64,000 bases of DNA from assembly GCA_026421205.1 (NCBI GenBank), contig JAPKBM010000005.1, positions 25,754-89,753 on the forward strand, read 5' to 3'. The notes under the pieces were generated by a model. It did not search any database, had not been told where the DNA came from, and saw only the letters and a program-made list of their open reading frames with translations. Source of the DNA: Planctomycetota bacterium (GTDB lineage: Bacteria; Planctomycetota; UBA1135). Numbering within the stretch: the stretch's first letter is position 1; every line of letters begins with the position of its first letter. A program made the position numbers and the translations under genes. Shown in pieces: positions 680 through 48,613 of this stretch.

Positions 680-716
680 TTGACTGGACTAGGGGCGACC
701 GTAAACTGTTCTGCCC
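680..716 (+). promoter_or_regulatory. Promoter for tRNA-Thr/Tyr/Gly/Thr-tuf: TTGACT-N16-TAAACT-N6-CCCTTTT
   Basis: -35 at 680-685, -10 at 702-707, CCC at 714-716, just upstream of the first tRNA. Confidence 0.75.
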
Positions 717-14081: not shown

Positions 14082-14118
14082 TTGACCTCCTCCCCGAAAT
14101 CGTTAAACTGTTACGCCC
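14082..14118 (+). promoter_or_regulatory. Promoter for rpsL-rpsG: TTGACC-N16-TAAACT-N6-CCCTTT
   Basis: -35 14082-14087, -10 14104-14109, CCC 14116-14118. Confidence 0.75.
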
Positions 14119-15531: not shown

Positions 15532-17595
15532 ATGGCGGTTTCATTGCTCCGGAATATTGGCATCGTGGCACACATTGATGCGGGGAAGACGACGTTAACG
15601 GAGCGTTTTCTTTTTTTGACGGGGGTGGAGCGTCGCATGGGGGAAGTTCATGATGGAGCGGCAACCATGGATTGGATGACGGAAGAGAGAGAACGAGGAA
15701 TCACCATTTCCGCCGCGGCCACCACGTGTCCATGGAGAGGGCACCAGATTCAAATCATTGATACCCCGGGCCATGTTGACTTCACCATTGAGGTTTCTCG
15801 TTCTCTTCGCGTGCTAGATGGGGTCGTAGTGGTTTTGGATGCTGTCGCAGGAGTCCAGGCGCAGACGGAAAATGTACTTCGTCAGGCGGATCTATTTGAA
15901 ATTCCAAGGATTGCATTGATCAATAAAATGGACCGCCCAGGCGCAAATTTCCAGAAGTCCATTCATTCTTTAGAGGAACGGGGGACCATTCCCGTTGTAC
16001 CAGTTCAAATTCCTATGGGGGAAGGTGAGGATTTTGTCGGAGTGATTGACCTCATCAAGCTTCAATCAATCTCATGGGGCGGAGAAAATGGGGAAGTCGT
16101 GGTCACCCAATCTATTCCAGAGTCATTGCTGCGGGCCGCGGAGAAAGGCCGGGATCTCCTTTGTTCCCGTGTTGCCGAAGAGGTTTCGTCTCTCGCTGAC
16201 CTTTACTTGGAAGAGGGAACGCTGAATCCTAAGCAACTCTCCGAAGGCCTACGCGTTGCGGTCCTTCAGAGGAAGCTAGTCCCTGTCTTTGCGGGAGCGG
16301 CCCTTTGTAATAAGGGAGTGCAACCCGTGTTGGATGCCCTTGTGGACTGGATGCCCTCCCCAGAAGACCGTCCATCCGTGAAAGGAAAAAATCCGGCTAC
16401 AGGGGCCCGCTTAGAACGCACACCCAAAGCTAGTGAACCTTTTTGTGCCCTTTGTTTTAAAATCTATCATGAGTCTTTTGGCGACCTAACGTACTTGCGT
16501 ATTTACTCCGGCACTCTCCGAGAAGGGGAGTCCGTCGGCGTCCCTAGGCTTCAGAAAACGGAGCGTGTCGAGAGGCTATTTCGAATGCATGCGGATTCTC
16601 GCGAGGCAATTCCCTCTGCAAGTGCAGGAGAAATTGTGGCCGTGATGGGTTTTAAGCATGCGCAAACGGGGGACACGCTTTGCTCCCTGGAAGAAGAGAT
16701 GCTCTTGGAGGGTTTGGATTTCCCAGACCCCGTCATTCGAATGAGCCTGGAGCCTCGTGAGCCCGCTGACCAAGATTCCTTGACGGCTGCCTTGCGTGTG
16801 GTTGCCAGAGAGGATCCTTCGCTGGTGGTGCAACTCGACGGGGATACCGGGCAAACCGTGATTTCTGGTATGGGAGAGCTCCATTTGGAAATCCTCCTCC
16901 ACCGCCTTGAACGAGACTTTTCTGTCCGACCTTTGGCGGGAAGGCCCCAGGTTTCTAGGAGGGAATTTGTAAAAACTCCACAGCGGGGGGTCGGCCGAGC
17001 AGAGAAGCGAACTCCCGATGGTGGCCAAGCCGTTTCCCTGACCTTGCAGGTCTCGCCAAGCGAGGCCCAGCTCATTCAGTGGCAACCTCATGGAATGGAG
17101 CCCATTCCTGCGGCATTACGGGTGTCTTTGCAAGAAGGCGTCGGGGCAATGGGCCTGACAGGGCCATGGGGTTATCCGCTGTCCGGTGTCACCCTCTCCG
17201 TGGCGGCTTGTGAGTGGACTCCGGGAGACAGCTCACCTTCTTTAGGCCTCCTTTTTGGCGCTTTTACGTCCGCGCTGTCCGATGCCATAAAGGGGAATAC
17301 GGGTTTTTTAGAGCCCGTGATGAATCTTAGCATTCATGTGCCCAAGGAGTTTTTATCCGGAGTATTGGCTGATTTGAGCTCTCGTCAAGCGGAAGTCCTT
17401 TCTGTCAATGCACTTACAGAAGAAGTCTTTGCGCGCGCACCGATGGATTGTCTTTTCTCCTATTCCACTGATTTAAGATCTTTATCCCAAGGGCGCGCTT
17501 CATTTCTTGCTGCCCTCGACGGATTTTCCCCGCTTTTGGGAAGTCGGGAGGCGAAGCTCCTGAAAAGATTAGGCGGTTCGCCTCTTTCTCCTTGA
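15532..17595 (+). CDS. Divergent elongation factor G (EF-G II / spdEFG2-like)
   Basis: Complete G domain (AHIDAGKTTLTERF, DTPGHVDF, NKMDRPGA), but domain IV lacks GGRGQYGHV and SYHEVDSSE signatures. Confidence 0.85.
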   Translation: MAVSLLRNIGIVAHIDAGKTTLTERFLFLTGVERRMGEVHDGAATMDWMTEERERGITISAAATTCPWRGHQIQIIDTPGHVDFTIEVSRSLRVLDGVVVVLDAVAGVQAQTENVLRQADLFEIPRIALINKMDRPGANFQKSIHSLEERGTIPVVPVQIPMGEGEDFVGVIDLIKLQSISWGGENGEVVVTQSIPESLLRAAEKGRDLLCSRVAEEVSSLADLYLEEGTLNPKQLSEGLRVAVLQRKLVPVFAGAALCNKGVQPVLDALVDWMPSPEDRPSVKGKNPATGARLERTPKASEPFCALCFKIYHESFGDLTYLRIYSGTLREGESVGVPRLQKTERVERLFRMHADSREAIPSASAGEIVAVMGFKHAQTGDTLCSLEEEMLLEGLDFPDPVIRMSLEPREPADQDSLTAALRVVAREDPSLVVQLDGDTGQTVISGMGELHLEILLHRLERDFSVRPLAGRPQVSRREFVKTPQRGVGRAEKRTPDGGQAVSLTLQVSPSEAQLIQWQPHGMEPIPAALRVSLQEGVGAMGLTGPWGYPLSGVTLSVAACEWTPGDSSPSLGLLFGAFTSALSDAIKGNTGFLEPVMNLSIHVPKEFLSGVLADLSSRQAEVLSVNALTEEVFARAPMDCLFSYSTDLRSLSQGRASFLAALDGFSPLLGSREAKLLKRLGGSPLSP

Positions 17596-17628
17596 CCTCT
17601 CGACGCCCTCGGCTAGAATACTTGGCCC
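17592..17628 (+). promoter_or_regulatory. Promoter for rpsJ (S10) operon: TTGACC-N16-TAGAAT-N6-CCCTTTTT
   Basis: -35 17592-17597 overlaps the EF-G stop; -10 17614-17619; CCC 17626-17628. Confidence 0.75.
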
Positions 17629-17639
17629 TTTTTAGGGAT

Positions 17640-17696
17640 AGCTCCGGAAAAACTTTGACCTCACCACGAAATGTGGCGGATAAGTTTTCCGGGGCT
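17640..17696 (+). promoter_or_regulatory. S10-operon leader hairpin
   Basis: AGCTCCGGAAAAACTT / AAGTTTTCCGGGGCT long stem (one bulge, one GU) enclosing CCAC-GAAAT-GTGG; ends 13 nt before the rpsJ ATG. Confidence 0.6.
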
Positions 17697-17709
17697 CAGT
17701 CACATTCTC

Positions 17710-18015
17710 ATGGCAAATCGCATTCAAATCCGTCTCGAGGCTTACGACCACGAGTCCATCGACCAAGCAACGGAATCGATCATCGAAGCTGCTCGTCTTA
17801 CGGGTGTTTCGGTCTCGGGGCCTATCCCACTTCCTACTCGTGTGGAGCGCTACACCGTTTTGCGTTCTCCTCACGTCAACAAAAAGGCTCGTGAACAGTT
17901 TGAGATTAGAACGCATAAGCGTTTGATGTATCTCTTAGAGCCTACCCCACAGACCGTTGATGCGCTAAACCGCCTCGTCTTGTCTGCGGGTGTCGACGTT
18001 CGAATCAAAGTCTGA
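17710..18015 (+). CDS. rpsJ: 30S ribosomal protein S10
   Basis: [24 protein letters not shown]...[35 protein letters not shown]. Confidence 0.98.
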
Positions 18016-35385: not shown

Positions 35386-35422
35386 TTGACGGGAGGCCTC
35401 GGATACGTTGAAATTTGCGCCC
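35386..35422 (+). promoter_or_regulatory. Promoter for tRNA-Arg-tadA: TTGACG-N16-TTGAAA-N6-CCC
   Basis: -35 35386-35391, -10 35408-35413, CCC 35420-35422. Confidence 0.6.
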
Positions 35423-35526: not shown

Positions 35527-36039
35527 ATGAATCTTCTTTTTCCTCTTGGAGAACCGCCTGACCCTGCTGAGCGTGATCGGAAAATCATGGGCATGGCGCT
35601 TCGGGAGGCACACCTTGCCATGGAAAGGGATGAAGTTCCTGTCGGGGTAGTTGTCGTTCTTGGTAATCGTGTCCTTGGCCGCGCAGGTAATTCCGTGGAG
35701 CAACTCAAAGATGCTACTGCGCATGCAGAAATGCTGGCATTGACTCAAGCATTTGAAGCCGTCGGCGAAAAGCGCCTCGAAAAGGCAGAGGTTTTCTGTA
35801 CTTTGGAGCCTTGCATTCAATGCGCTGGGGCCCTCATGCATGCTCGCGTTGCCCGGCTTGTTTATGGGGCAACCGATCCAAAGTTTGGGGGAGTAGAAAG
35901 CTTGGCAACGCTTTTTGACCTGCCCGGCGTGAATCACCGAGTCCGGCACGAGGGGGGCCTCTTTGCGGAAGAGTCGGCTCAATTACTTCGGCGTTTTTTT
36001 CAATCCAAGCGTAGGCGAAGCAAGGGGAATTTGTTATAA
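35527..36039 (+). CDS. tadA: tRNA adenosine(34) deaminase
   Basis: HAE and PCxxC deaminase motifs: DATAHAEMLAL, TLEPCIQCAGALMHARV. Confidence 0.93.
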   Translation: MNLLFPLGEPPDPAERDRKIMGMALREAHLAMERDEVPVGVVVVLGNRVLGRAGNSVEQLKDATAHAEMLALTQAFEAVGEKRLEKAEVFCTLEPCIQCAGALMHARVARLVYGATDPKFGGVESLATLFDLPGVNHRVRHEGGLFAEESAQLLRRFFQSKRRRSKGNLL

Positions 36040-36049
36040 TTTCCGTCCC
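36032..36049 (+). promoter_or_regulatory. Extended -10 promoter for tRNA-Ser: TGTTATAAT-N6-CCC
   Basis: TATAAT 36035-36040 preceded by TG-T; TTCCGT then CCC 36047-36049. Confidence 0.65.
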
Positions 36050-41343: not shown

Positions 41344-42929
41344 ATACCGACGCCCTCCGCCTTGTTGTGAATCACTCAGACCCCGAAGAAGTTCGCGTTG
41401 CTCTTTGCAAGGGCACGGAACTCCAGGGGGTGCGTTGTTGGCAATCCGAGGCCATTAGTATTGTGGGAGCTGTGTATTGGGGTAGGGTTTTGCAAGTTGA
41501 GGCTGGGCTTGAAGCTGCTTTTGTCGACATCGGCGAAAAACGGGCAGCTTTTCTACACTTTGGAAATATTCATCCAGCATATGCAGAAGAAGACTGTCAC
41601 CCTATGGAAGTTGCCGAAAGGCCGAGTCGGATTGCCGAAGAAGCGGCTGGAGCACCTGAGGAGCCAATGGATAAAATGTCGTCGGCCGACAGAGAAGGGG
41701 AACAAGAAGAGGACTTGCTGGAAAAAGAGGTTCATTCTCCTGCCGATTTCTTGAAACCGGGCGATACCGTTTTGGTTCAGGTTCTCCGTGACCCTGTTCG
41801 TGGAAAGGGAGCAACCCTGACAACCTTTCTTTCTTTGCCCGGTCGTTACGGCGTTTTGATGCCCAGCTTAAATCGGGTTGGGGTAAGCCGAAAGATTGTC
41901 GATGCGAAAGAAAGAAGTCGGCTTCGGGCTATATTCGAAGGCATGTCGGCGGCGGCTGCTGGCATGATTGCGCGTACGGCGGCAAGTGGAGTGGAGGAAT
42001 CCGAGATTCTGAAAGACTTGGAGCTTTTGCAGTCTATTTGGGCAGACGTACGAAAGCAGTCCGAGGGCCGCGAAGATGTGGGTTGTCTTTGGCAAGAAGC
42101 ATCCCCATTCATCCGCGCAGTGCAGGATTTGTGCTATGGGGAAGTCACAGAAATCCTTGTGGACAGCGACGGCGCAAAAGAAGAGGCCCAGGAATATATT
42201 CAGCGCTACTTCCCTGATGGCGGCCCTGCATTAACAGTTTCTACCTCGTCGAAGCCAATTTTTGAAGCTGAAGGGTTGGAGCGAGATTGGCAGCTTCTTT
42301 TCCGTCCACGCGTTCCCATTGGATCGGGTGCTTCCATTGTGATTCATGAAACGGAAGCCCTGGTGGCGATTGATGTGAATAGCGGGCGATTAGACCGAAA
42401 CAGTTTGGAGGAAACTGCGTTTGACACTAATTGTTTGGCTGCGGTGGAAGCGGCTCGTCAGATTCGTTTGCGCGATATCGGCGGTATCGTGGTGCTTGAC
42501 TTCATCGATATGCGTTCGCCGGAAAATCGCTTTGCTTTGGAAAATCTATTCCGGGATGAATTAGCGAAAGATCCTGCAAAGTCAAAGGTCGGCCCGCTCG
42601 CCGCCTTCGGCCTTCTTTCGATGACTCGCCGACGTCAAGGATTTGGCCTGAGAAAAGGCTCCGCTTGGATGTGCAAGGGCTGTGGAGGATCCGGCTCTAC
42701 TTCGCACCATCAGGCCGGTGGTTTGCGTGTTTTGAGAAAGATGCGTACTTTCTCGAAGTCGACGTCCATTCAGATTCGTTGTCATCCTGGGGTGGAGGCC
42801 GTTTTGACGGGTGCCTTTAAGGAGGCACTCTATAATTTGGGCCATTCTGTGAAAGTACTTGCTGACCCTCAGGTTCCGTCAGGGGACTCCGTGGTTGAGG
42901 TCCTTGCTCCGGACCCAAGGAAACGCTAA
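41340..42929 (+). CDS. rng: Ribonuclease E/G family
   Basis: GRVLQVEAGLEAAFVDIGEKRAAFLH, AIDVNSGR, DIGGIVVLDFIDM. Confidence 0.95.
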   Translation: MNTDALRLVVNHSDPEEVRVALCKGTELQGVRCWQSEAISIVGAVYWGRVLQVEAGLEAAFVDIGEKRAAFLHFGNIHPAYAEEDCHPMEVAERPSRIAEEAAGAPEEPMDKMSSADREGEQEEDLLEKEVHSPADFLKPGDTVLVQVLRDPVRGKGATLTTFLSLPGRYGVLMPSLNRVGVSRKIVDAKERSRLRAIFEGMSAAAAGMIARTAASGVEESEILKDLELLQSIWADVRKQSEGREDVGCLWQEASPFIRAVQDLCYGEVTEILVDSDGAKEEAQEYIQRYFPDGGPALTVSTSSKPIFEAEGLERDWQLLFRPRVPIGSGASIVIHETEALVAIDVNSGRLDRNSLEETAFDTNCLAAVEAARQIRLRDIGGIVVLDFIDMRSPENRFALENLFRDELAKDPAKSKVGPLAAFGLLSMTRRRQGFGLRKGSAWMCKGCGGSGSTSHHQAGGLRVLRKMRTFSKSTSIQIRCHPGVEAVLTGAFKEALYNLGHSVKVLADPQVPSGDSVVEVLAPDPRKR

Positions 42930-42941
42930 ACTGTTCGACCC
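42904..42941 (+). promoter_or_regulatory. Promoter for rplU-rpmA: TTGCTC-N17-TAAACT-N6-CCCGTTT
   Basis: -10 42927-42932 and CCC 42939-42941 match the layout of the other ribosomal promoters. Confidence 0.6.
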
Positions 42942-43548: not shown

Positions 43549-43565
43549 TCCCTTGTTGATTGACT

Positions 43566-43601
43566 GAACGGGGGGCCCAAGTAGCCTCCCGTTCCTTTTT
43601 T
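43566..43601 (+). terminator. Rho-independent terminator after rpmA
   Basis: GAACGGGGGGC-N7-GCCTCCCGTTC (one GU) followed by CTTTTTT; lies inside the over-extended 43560 ORF, so obgE starts downstream. Confidence 0.92.
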
Positions 43602-43607
43602 AATTAT

Positions 43608-44639
43608 ATGAAGCAAGACGGCATGTTTCGCGACGAGGCGGTTCTTCATGTAAGAGCTGGGAAGGGGGGGGATGGTTGTTGCAGTTTTCACCGAGAAAAA
43701 TACGTCACGCAAGGTGGTCCTGATGGAGGAGATGGCGGTGATGGTGGCAACGTCGTTTTTGTCGCAACCTCTCATGAGAACTCTCTCTTTCGTGTTGCAC
43801 GTCAAAGAGAACATTTTGCTGAGCATGGCCGGCCTGGGGGCCCTAATAATTGCTCCGGTGCCCAAGGGGAATCCATTGAAATCCATGTCCCTATTGGCAC
43901 GCAAATCAAAGATGCACGTCGGGGAAATTTACTGGCGGACTTGAAGGAAGATGGGGAACAGATTGTGATTGCCGAAGGAGGTCGCGGTGGCAAGGGCAAC
44001 GCGCGTTTTGCTTCGGCCACACACCAGACTCCTGATCGCTTTGATAAGGGGACGCCGGGCGAAGATCGGCAGGTAGCCCTGGAATTGAAATTAGTGGCTA
44101 ATGTTGGCTTTGTTGGACTCCCGAACGCTGGAAAGAGTACGTTATTGCGGACGTTGACCTCGGCGCGGCCGCGGGTTGGTGCGTACCCATTCACGACTTT
44201 GGATCCAAGCCTTGGGGTCATGGAAACGGGAGCTGACCCACCAACCTTGGTGTTGGCGGATATTCCTGGTTTGATTGAAGGTGCTAATGAGGGGAAAGGG
44301 CTTGGCCACCAGTTTCTGCGCCATGTAGAGCGCACCCAAGTACTTTTACATTTGGTGGATTGCTCCGTGGCTTCGGAGGACCCTTGGACAGATTTCCAGA
44401 CGATTCGCCAAGAAATAACGGCATTTAGCCCAGAATTATCCCAAAGAAGTTGGCTATTGCTTGCTACAAAAATAGAAGATGATGCATCCAGATTGCGAGC
44501 TCAGGATCTCATGGAGAAATCCGGCCAAGATGGCTTGTTGATTTCTGCAGCGATGGCGCAGGGACTCGACGCTTTGCGATTCCGCTTGGCGGCAATTGTG
44601 AAAGAAACAGCCCTTCGCATTACTTCGGAGCAGGGGTAG
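43608..44639 (+). CDS. obgE: GTPase Obg/CgtA
   Basis: GKGGDGCCSFHREKY, GLPNAGKSTLLRTLTSARPRVGAYPFTTL; start 43608 or 43623. Confidence 0.96.
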   Translation: MKQDGMFRDEAVLHVRAGKGGDGCCSFHREKYVTQGGPDGGDGGDGGNVVFVATSHENSLFRVARQREHFAEHGRPGGPNNCSGAQGESIEIHVPIGTQIKDARRGNLLADLKEDGEQIVIAEGGRGGKGNARFASATHQTPDRFDKGTPGEDRQVALELKLVANVGFVGLPNAGKSTLLRTLTSARPRVGAYPFTTLDPSLGVMETGADPPTLVLADIPGLIEGANEGKGLGHQFLRHVERTQVLLHLVDCSVASEDPWTDFQTIRQEITAFSPELSQRSWLLLATKIEDDASRLRAQDLMEKSGQDGLLISAAMAQGLDALRFRLAAIVKETALRITSEQG

Positions 44640-44648
44640 GATGAGAAG

Positions 44649-45614
44649 GTGAGTTATCGTCTCATTCGCTTGTTTTTCACCTTGGCTGGTGTTCTAGCCT
44701 TGGCGGGCTTTGGGTTGTCTTTTAGTGATTTTGTGCAAAACCGTGCCACATACCTGCAGCCTTTTGATCCGCGTCGCTTGCAGTCCTCGATTAAAGAATA
44801 TTCTTCCAATACACTTTTTGGGCATCTGAAGGCGCATGACCCACATTTCCAGGTTCTCCATCTCAAGGAAGCTTCCGGCTGGGTGAAGCCCCTAGAAACC
44901 TTACCTGGTGCCGTTGCTCCGCCTCCTCCAAAGCCTAAAATTGGCCCCGATGACTTGGAAGTTATTTTAATTCAGTATTCTTCCGTATCGGCCCGCGCGG
45001 CGGCATTTTTGCGGCCCACGGATGCCCCCAGTGGCGACCCTTCTGTGGGAGGGTTCTACCGTCACGGGGAAGAGTTTGAAATTGAGTCGAAGGAAGGTCT
45101 CACTCTTTTCTTGAAGGACATTCGAAGGAATGAAGTGGAAATTGGAATTAAAGAGGATGACTTTTCATTTGTTCTTACGACTCGGGAGGCCGAGATAGAC
45201 ACAGAAGGTCGCATCACCGTCATGGGCTCAAACGGAGAGGCCGTCTCCATAACAACAAGTCGTTCTAAGACAGAAGAGGTGGTCCCGGATACGTTTGAGT
45301 TGGGGTCGGACGATATTCGCATGATGGAAGAAATGCCGGAAGATGAGATTCTTGCCGCCGTTCAAGTTGGCCCTGCGCGGGATGCTACCGGGCAAGTCGT
45401 CGGCTTGAAGATTAAATCCATTAAAGCGGGTTCTCCTTTTGCACACATCGGTTTAAAAAACAATGACATTGTGTTGCAGGTCAATGGCCTTCCCACAACG
45501 GACCGTGCGGAGGTACTTCGCTTTATGCGCCAGCAAGAGCCTGGTCAAACGCTCCATGTTTTGGTGGAGCGCTTAGGTCGCATGCGTTCCTTGACTTACC
45601 GCCTTCCGCGTTAA
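44649..45614 (+). CDS. Membrane-anchored PDZ protein, GspC-like
   Basis: N-terminal TM and C-terminal PDZ (IKSIKAGSPFAHIGLKNNDIVLQVNGLPTTDRAEVLRFMRQQEPGQ). Confidence 0.65.
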   Translation: MSYRLIRLFFTLAGVLALAGFGLSFSDFVQNRATYLQPFDPRRLQSSIKEYSSNTLFGHLKAHDPHFQVLHLKEASGWVKPLETLPGAVAPPPPKPKIGPDDLEVILIQYSSVSARAAAFLRPTDAPSGDPSVGGFYRHGEEFEIESKEGLTLFLKDIRRNEVEIGIKEDDFSFVLTTREAEIDTEGRITVMGSNGEAVSITTSRSKTEEVVPDTFELGSDDIRMMEEMPEDEILAAVQVGPARDATGQVVGLKIKSIKAGSPFAHIGLKNNDIVLQVNGLPTTDRAEVLRFMRQQEPGQTLHVLVERLGRMRSLTYRLPR

Positions 45615-47262: not shown

Positions 47263-47293
47263 GGTCAATTCCCCGCGAGGGTAAACTAGGGGT

Positions 47294-48613
47294 ATGAGGC
47301 TTCTGCCCTTGACGGAAGGTTTGCACTCAGCTGAAGCCTTCTCTCGGCCCTACCTGGAGTCCTTTCTGGAGCTTGTTCGTTCTATAGAGAGGTCACCTTT
47401 GCGTTATGCCAATGCCCTTGATGGCTATCTGATTGCCACCGTCTTTGAGGAGCCCTCGACCCGCACGCGTCTTTCTTTTGAGGCGGCAGCCCACCGTTTG
47501 GGCGCCCGTGTAATTTCTATTTCAGACCCAAGAAGCTCAAGCTCCGTAAAGGGCGAAACACTCAGCGATGCGGCTCGTGTGATGGGCGGATACGCCGATC
47601 TTCTTGTTTGGCGCCACCCGAGAGATGGCGCATCTCGTCGAGCCGCCCAAGTGGCTGGAGTCCCTGTGATTAATGGGGGAGACGGGCGTCTAGGGCATCC
47701 CACCCAAACTTTGGTTGATCTATCCATACTACATCAGAAGTGGGGAGTCATTGAAGGAAAGACCGTCGGCATCCTCGGAGACATTCAAAATGGCCGAACG
47801 GCTCGTTCCTTAGCGTGGAGTCTGGCTGTGCTAGGAGCGCGCATTTTGCTGTTGCCCGGTTCTGGTTTAGATTGGGAACCAGGATTCGAGAATCGACTGA
47901 TGCATCGCTTCGCTTACCGATTGAAAAGAGTGCGGCATCCGTTAATTCAGGAATGGACGGGGAACCCGGAGGCACGCATGCTGGAGCCCAAAGGCTTAGT
48001 GCAGGGCGAACTTTTTGGTGTGGGTACTTCTGCTCTTCATGGGCTAGACGCTCTCTACCTCACCCGTCTTCAAGAGGAACGGGGTGCCAAGGCCCACCGT
48101 GGGGGATATCCGGGTATTACGGTAGAACAATTGAAAGATCCACTCTTGCAAGACACCTTGTTATTGCATCCCTTACCACGGCGTGATGAGCTCCCAGTTG
48201 CAGTGGATGAGGATCCTCGTGCCCTTTATTTTGAGCAGGCCAACATGGGTCCTCGAGTGCGTCAGGCAGTCTTTTTATCTCTTTTATGTCCAGAAAAGGT
48301 CGATTTGCCGGCTCTAAACCCACTTCCCTCCGGGAATCCGGAGCATTTCTTGGCTCCTTGCCCTAATAAGAACTGCATTACGCACGCCGAAGGCCTTCGG
48401 CCGCCTTGGCGCGTTGAGGGCAAGGGGAAGCGTATTTTCTTGTGCTCTTTTTGTGATGTGCCGCTTGAGGCTCCTTATGTGGGTTGTTTGTCGAGCAGGA
48501 AGGTGCATCCGGCGTATTCCCCGCTGGTTCAGCAGATTCGGCCGGAGAATCTGGTGCCTTTTCAAACGCGTGACCAGGCGGAGAAAGAGGACTATTCCTG
48601 GGGCGGAGGCTGA
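47294..48613 (+). CDS. pyrB: Aspartate carbamoyltransferase with C-terminal PyrI-type zinc domain
   Basis: FEEPSTRTRLSFEAAAHRLGA, HPTQTLVDL, HPLPRRDE; C-terminal CPNKNCITHAE...FLCSFC. Confidence 0.9.
   Translation: MRLLPLTEGLHSAEAFSRPYLESFLELVRSIERSPLRYANALDGYLIATVFEEPSTRTRLSFEAAAHRLGARVISISDPRSSSSVKGETLSDAARVMGGYADLLVWRHPRDGASRRAAQVAGVPVINGGDGRLGHPTQTLVDLSILHQKWGVIEGKTVGILGDIQNGRTARSLAWSLAVLGARILLLPGSGLDWEPGFENRLMHRFAYRLKRVRHPLIQEWTGNPEARMLEPKGLVQGELFGVGTSALHGLDALYLTRLQEERGAKAHRGGYPGITVEQLKDPLLQDTLLLHPLPRRDELPVAVDEDPRALYFEQANMGPRVRQAVFLSLLCPEKVDLPALNPLPSGNPEHFLAPCPNKNCITHAEGLRPPWRVEGKGKRIFLCSFCDVPLEAPYVGCLSSRKVHPAYSPLVQQIRPENLVPFQTRDQAEKEDYSWGGG

Follow-up and report, generated by a model that had tools for sequence, protein, structure and literature searches.

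The DNA analysed here, a stretch of 64,000 nt (the window), belongs to a Planctomycetota MAG of 2.15 Mb in 96 contigs (88% complete) and carries a series of translation genes whose promoters, all on the + strand, had been described in an initial annotation as sharing a -35, a -10, six nucleotides and CCC. We count promoter positions from the first base after the -10, so that the six nucleotides are positions 1-6 and the first C is position 7; a slash in a sequence marks the boundary between positions 6 and 7. The promoter of the tRNA-Thr/Tyr/Gly/Thr-tuf operon (680..716) consists of a -35 TTGACT (680-685), a -10 TAAACT (702-707), GTTCTG (708-713) and a C-run (714-716), the predicted +1 being 714. 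The rpsL promoter of the str operon (14082..14118) has TTGACC (14082-14087), TAAACT (14104-14109), GTTACG and CCC (14116-14118), and the rpsJ promoter of the S10 operon (17592..17628) has TTGACC (17592-17597), TAGAAT (17614-17619), ACTTGG and CCC (17626-17628). At the tRNA-Arg(ACG)/tadA promoter (35386..35422), TTGACG (35386-35391) and CCC (35420-35422) flank a weak -10, TTGAAA (35408-35413), in place of which our blind scorer favours TGAAAT one base on (35409-35414). The promoter of tRNA-Ser(CGA), tRNA-Ser and the SRP RNA (36035..36049) reads TATAAT (36035-36040), TTCCGT and CCC (36047-36049) with no recognisable -35, and that of rplU-rpmA (42904..42941) reads TAAACT (42927-42932), GTTCGA and CCC (42939-42941) behind a -35-like TTGCTC (42904-42909). 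All six of the annotated -10/N6/CCC strings are thus present, while a -35, which had been claimed for all of them, is clear at four (tuf-tRNA, rpsL, rpsJ and tRNA-Arg), partial at rplU and not recognisable at tRNA-Ser. In terms of a sigma70-type core (TTGACN/TANNNT, 16-18 bp spacing), the match is clear at tuf-tRNA, rpsL, rpsJ, tRNA-Arg (in its -35) and the 16S rRNA, and weak at tRNA-Ser and rplU. Only one further promoter candidate in the window scores above 9, the candidate promoter of obg, the gene of a ribosome-assembly GTPase (43560..43601; TTGACT-N16-TAGCCT-CCCGTT-CCTTTTTT), which was absent from the initial list and has CC at positions 7-8; the six sites are therefore no hand-made selection out of a longer list. 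As a separate observation on the str operon, its fusA (15532-17595) is divergent, being about 44-53% identical to the str-operon copies of relatives, and a second EF-G-like gene, 41% identical, lies elsewhere in the source genome (C8:4657).

For comparison, 25 genomes of the same family were available, together with 35 that represent the order's other families, with codon-scored gene calls in the GC-rich relatives, where spurious ORFs otherwise cover the promoters. From the family we assembled 77 translation promoters (rpsL, rpsJ, rpsB, the tuf-tRNA operon and own tRNA promoters), picked by their -35/-10 score alone and blind to the sequence downstream. C occupies position 7 in 95%, position 8 in 90% and position 9 in 71% of these, and CC stands at positions 7-8 in 68/77, while at control positions 10-20 of the same leaders CC occurs in only 0-11/77. 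Gene-internal promoter look-alikes used as decoys have CC in 2/30, and of 13 non-translation promoters hand-sorted with Pfam, a small control set, 2 carry it (Fisher P = 3e-7 in comparison with the family set and 5e-4 in comparison with the translation set of the own genome). Orthologous promoters within the 77 are not independent counts; the tRNA promoters of the own genome are separate loci, and 14 of 16 have C at position 7 (binomial P = 4e-7), with CC or CCC in the start region of many of their leaders. The shared start region proposed for translation promoters is thus upheld by the blind-picked family set, the decoys and the own tRNA loci, the layout being far commoner there than at decoys or at other promoters. 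Locus by locus, CC at 7-8 is found in all 15 family orthologues of the conserved tuf-tRNA promoter, in 10/10 scorable orthologues of the rpsL promoter and in 19/19 of the rpsJ promoter; the rplU promoters of relatives read CGG/CC in three genomes (G001, G002, G003) and CCG/CT in a fourth (G007). The start regions of the rRNA promoters P1 and P2 agree with those of the rpsL, rpsJ, rpsB and tuf-tRNA orthologues, as do those of rpsT, rplM, rpsU, rpmB and tRNA promoters; 16S rRNA P1 reads TAGAAT-ACTCGG-CCC and a second 16S candidate TAAGAT-ACTACG-CCCC.

The CCC of the initial annotation needs to be amended in one respect. C at position 7 and CC at 7-8 are conserved, but the third C is optional, with CCC in 50/77 family promoters and 4/16 own tRNA promoters and with rpsB often showing CCA or CTC, so that the CCC homopolymer is not the key feature. 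The conserved core is instead longer (RYYCGG/CC): the bases upstream favour R-Y-Y-C-G-G, position 6 is G or A in 91% of the 77 promoters, and the bases following the C-run are AT-rich. Beyond the family, 20 scorable promoters from other families of the order show C at position 8 in 19/20 and a pyrimidine at position 7 in 17/20, and the order-level leaders begin YCCTTTT. A phylum-wide CC start was not found, the 10 scorable tuf-tRNA promoters having two pyrimidines at 7-8 in 8 cases and CC in 1. By these comparisons the CC form is kept most strictly in this family and loosens in more distant relatives, becoming YCC elsewhere in the order. In two loci from other families of the order (L094 and L096) the rpsB promoter is not recognisable by the same core, which suggests promoter turnover.

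The full element can be written TTGAC-N17-TARAMT-RYYCGG/CC(C). Genome-wide, plain TANAMT-N6-CCC is not enriched (49 matches against 62 for a reversed control), although it is concentrated at translation promoters; the discriminator YYCGG is needed for enrichment, and TANAMT-N-YYCGGCC gives 135 matches against 17 for its reversed control, summed over 16 family genomes. In a survey of 527 kb of the source genome, identified intergenic TANRMT-N-YYCGG sites precede rRNA, tRNA, rpsB, rpsT or rpmI-rplT, with L046:216 and the contig-edge site L050:67 falling outside the identified ones. Among 42 classified matches to TANAMT-N-YYCGGCC in four genomes (G000, G001, G003, G006), 26 precede rRNA, tRNA, r-protein or release factor genes, 8 are located inside genes or antisense to them (among these a site that recurs within a coding region), and 8 are other or unknown. 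The class is consequently dominated by translation genes (26/42) but not restricted to them, since the extended motif also precedes sucC in the source genome and, in relatives, isocitrate dehydrogenase (IDH), GAPDH, an ArsC-like/fdhD operon and a dksA-like-lspA operon. Among individual sites, one promoter of the CGG/CC type in a relative (G006:C18) lies ahead of a gene for a protein in which two copies of the C-terminal domain of RNA polymerase alpha are fused to TPR repeats (L281:1118-2491). At two others a glycine riboswitch on the opposite strand adjoins the promoter (L252:1580-1673 and L273:304-399), the promoter in L252 preceding rpmB (L28).

Leaderless genes provide a ruler for the position at which transcription starts. 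For 1086 called genes we recorded the spacing of TANRHT to the in-frame start codon, with unrelated spacings as baseline. At a spacing of six nucleotides ATG occurs 52 times against a baseline of 5.2 and GTG 15 times against 1.9, while at five nucleotides both remain at baseline (6 vs 5.2 and 3 vs 1.9); TTG and CTG show no peak. These genes are best read as leaderless genes, which are common in this planctomycete family, and leaderless-gene promoters in which TANNNT lies some 12 bp ahead of the start codon are known in other bacteria (PMC3160421), sharing with the translation class the -10 and position 7 for +1. Smaller excesses of start codons 7-10 nt after TANRHT indicate that positions 8-11 may also be usable as +1. 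Given the +1 at position 7 in leaderless genes, the +1 of the translation promoters should be the first C, where the initial annotation had expected it, and their RNAs would begin pppCpC. The two initiators are then opposite: leaderless promoters start with the A or G of the start codon, mostly as C(-1)A/G(+1), and carry YYCG in 0/52, whereas translation promoters favour YYCG and have C at position 7, that is G(-1)C(+1) with +1 at position 7. Within the window this contrast is illustrated by the leaderless-type promoter TAAACT-AGGGGT-ATG (47282..47296, + strand) before an aspartate/ornithine carbamoyltransferase-PyrI-like (PyrB-type) gene starting at 47294, in which the A of ATG occupies position 7, where translation promoters carry C; a second site of the leaderless type (TANNNT-N6-ATG/GTG) lies at 44637-44651.

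We propose, with a probability of about 0.6, that these sites form a specialised sigma70-type promoter class for ribosome and tRNA production whose RNAs probably start with C and whose output, less certainly, would follow CTP supply and supercoiling. The comparisons above establish computationally the class, its conservation, its preference for translation genes and the +1 geometry read off leaderless genes. In this model a strong core, TTGAC-N17-TARAMT, would be joined to a dedicated start region, R-Y-Y-C-G-G/C-C-(C)-N-W-T-T, that is a deliberately poor initiation site, as two consecutive CTPs would be needed first and no favourable purine would be available at +1. With a G at -1 ahead of two Cs (+1 and +2), the first two nucleotides would bind weakly, and the GC-rich bubble would give a short-lived open complex, so that output would track the supply of the initiating nucleotide, CTP, and supercoiling. 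Synthesis of rRNA, tRNA and r-proteins could in this way be coordinated at initiation in a lineage free of RelA/SpoT. RelA/SpoT was detected in 0/26 genomes of the order searched, with 11/14 control genomes positive, in agreement with its reported absence from the PVC superphylum (PMC3153485). The promoters thus display one trait of stringent control, a GC-rich discriminator with CGG favoured at positions 4-6 and followed by CC at stable-RNA and r-protein promoters, while the ppGpp-making RelA/SpoT is missing. It is this absence from 26/26 genomes that makes CTP-sensitive initiation, a hypothesis drawn from sequence patterns, attractive.

The main rival is a classical GC-rich discriminator with which transcription really starts at a purine, either that of position 6 or one beyond the C-run, placing CCC at +2 to +4 or upstream of +1. 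RNA polymerases generally prefer purines, and the purine at position 6 found in 91% of the promoters could be the start, a point that counts against the C-start model together with the motif at metabolic genes (sucC, IDH, GAPDH). Furthermore, E. coli rRNA and tRNA promoters carry GCGC followed by CC at the same places, and the start of rrnB P1 in E. coli lies 9 nt downstream; since GC-rich discriminators can shift the start (PMC7822876), the leaderless-gene ruler may not transfer exactly to translation promoters. However, leaderless genes make no use of position 6, which disfavours a start there, and positions 7-12 are free of purines in 25/77 translation promoters, excluding a purine start in these over most of the range used by leaderless genes. 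A few promoters lack a purine at positions 5-6 as well, such as those of a tRNA-Leu (ATTCCC/CCC) and of rpsL in L004 (CTCACC/CCC). A literature search found no paper on planctomycete start-site mapping. Taken together, we regard a purine start as somewhat unlikely.

We consider it unlikely that a regulator binding DNA or RNAP, such as the DksA/TraR-like protein that relatives have, recognises CGGCC around +1, the bases there being kept for its sake and not for that of the initiating nucleotide. Conservation does cover both the C-run and the discriminator (YYCGG), and proteins with a DksA/TraR zinc finger (zf-dksA) were found in 14/15 same-family relatives searched. In three of them (G008:C56:15833, G011:C23:6084 and G015:C91:6889) a CGG/CC promoter precedes a dksA-like-lspA operon, the motif lying some 280 nt ahead of where the zinc-finger match begins, in an order whose searched genomes are without RelA/SpoT. 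Against such a regulator, no DksA-like gene was found in the source genome (88% complete), DksA does not read DNA sequence, and the rigid spacing between -10 and CC fits RNAP geometry.

An element acting at the 5' end of the RNA, either by TOP-like control of translation or decay or as a protective 5'-terminal CCC..GGG hairpin, would be compatible with the ability of rpsJ and some 16S leaders to pair CCC with a nearby GGG, with the order-level YCCTTTT leaders and with the pyrimidine initiators of eukaryotic translation genes (PMC6954239). The rpsJ leader (17626..17709, + strand), which ends before the probable rpsJ start codon, ATG at 17710, begins with such a 5' CCC..GGG hairpin, followed by a conserved long hairpin with the internal motifs GACCUAAC and GCGGAUA. 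The long hairpin has 17 consensus pairs, 10 of them with two-sided changes that keep the pair, and no Rfam family scores above threshold; by this pattern the leader forms a structured RNA that the family conserves, and it may bind an r-protein and be a candidate for autoregulation. As a general explanation, a function in the RNA is nevertheless very unlikely: tRNA leaders of 10-30 nt carry CC but no GGG for it to pair with, and RNase P cleaves these leaders off, which speaks against the resemblance to 5' TOP messages suggested initially. The element is moreover common to rRNA, tRNA and mRNA, RNAs of different fates, and should therefore act at initiation. Start-site slippage, also raised initially, we judge highly improbable as the means of regulation: CC by itself is too short for efficient slippage, and the homopolymer of at least three at +1 that reiterative transcription takes is not conserved (CCC in 50/77 and in 4/16 own tRNA promoters, rpsB often having CCA or CTC), even though homopolymer starts slip in other bacteria and reiterative initiation is pervasive in S. 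agalactiae (PMC4448216). Chance or selection by the reader, to which the unenriched plain TANAMT-N6-CCC might point, is refuted by blind promoter choice, orthologue conservation and the 135:17 ratio of the extended motif, and its probability is practically nil.

The preferred reading of C-starting, CTP-responsive promoters can be extended to the proposal that the order coordinates ribosome synthesis, independently of ppGpp, via a CTP-sensing regulon of pppCpC starts whose inverted initiator (G-1 C+1) would have converged on the eukaryotic TOP/TCT type, which we offer tentatively as possible but on balance doubtful. The means by which bacteria that lack ppGpp adjust ribosome production to nutrients are poorly understood, and the chief free-living group to lack RelA/SpoT is the PVC superphylum. 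A concrete target for this question is offered by a sharply delimited promoter class that spans rRNA, tRNA and r-protein operons and whose inferred start nucleotide is the reverse of the one used by the genome's other genes. If the C-start CTP reading is true, ribosome production would possibly be tied to nucleotide supply. The class also provides a clean motif with which translation promoters of planctomycetes not in culture can be annotated.

Compared with known systems, the element by its sequence is a related but distinct variant of the known GC-rich discriminator region. The same analysis applied to E. coli K-12 reveals several stable-RNA and r-protein promoters in which a GCGC discriminator is followed by C or CC at 7-8, such as glyV (GCGCCT/CCC), rrnB P2 (GCACAC/CCC), leuQ (GCGCCT/CC) and rplU (TCGCGC/CC), so that the layout is less unusual than initially held, although the discriminator itself differs. 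The E. coli stringent discriminators resemble the planctomycete class in gene set and region; they differ in being GCGC rather than RYYCGG, in lacking the nearly invariant positions 7-8, in serving ppGpp/DksA control, for which the planctomycete lineage has no RelA/SpoT, and, at rrnB P1, in a start 9 nt downstream in contrast to the first C predicted here from leaderless genes. In B. subtilis GTP is the initiating nucleotide of every rRNA promoter, and their output tracks the GTP level (PMC7824091), a similar case in that one start nucleotide, here a predicted one, would be common to all stable-RNA promoters of a genome. The planctomycete class would use C in place of G and covers tRNA and r-protein promoters too, and NTP sensing, known for B. 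subtilis, is hypothetical here. The likeness to eukaryotic 5'TOP/TCT, with a pyrimidine initiator at translation genes and YR at others (in the planctomycete, mostly C(-1)A/G(+1) at leaderless genes), is an analogy only. A 5'TOP start has C at +1 followed by 4-14 pyrimidines in an mRNA, and only 26/77 promoters are all-pyrimidine through position 11. The planctomycete class further differs in that it is read by another polymerase, is found on rRNA and tRNA as well, implies no machinery of the LARP1/TOR type and would act before any mature RNA exists.
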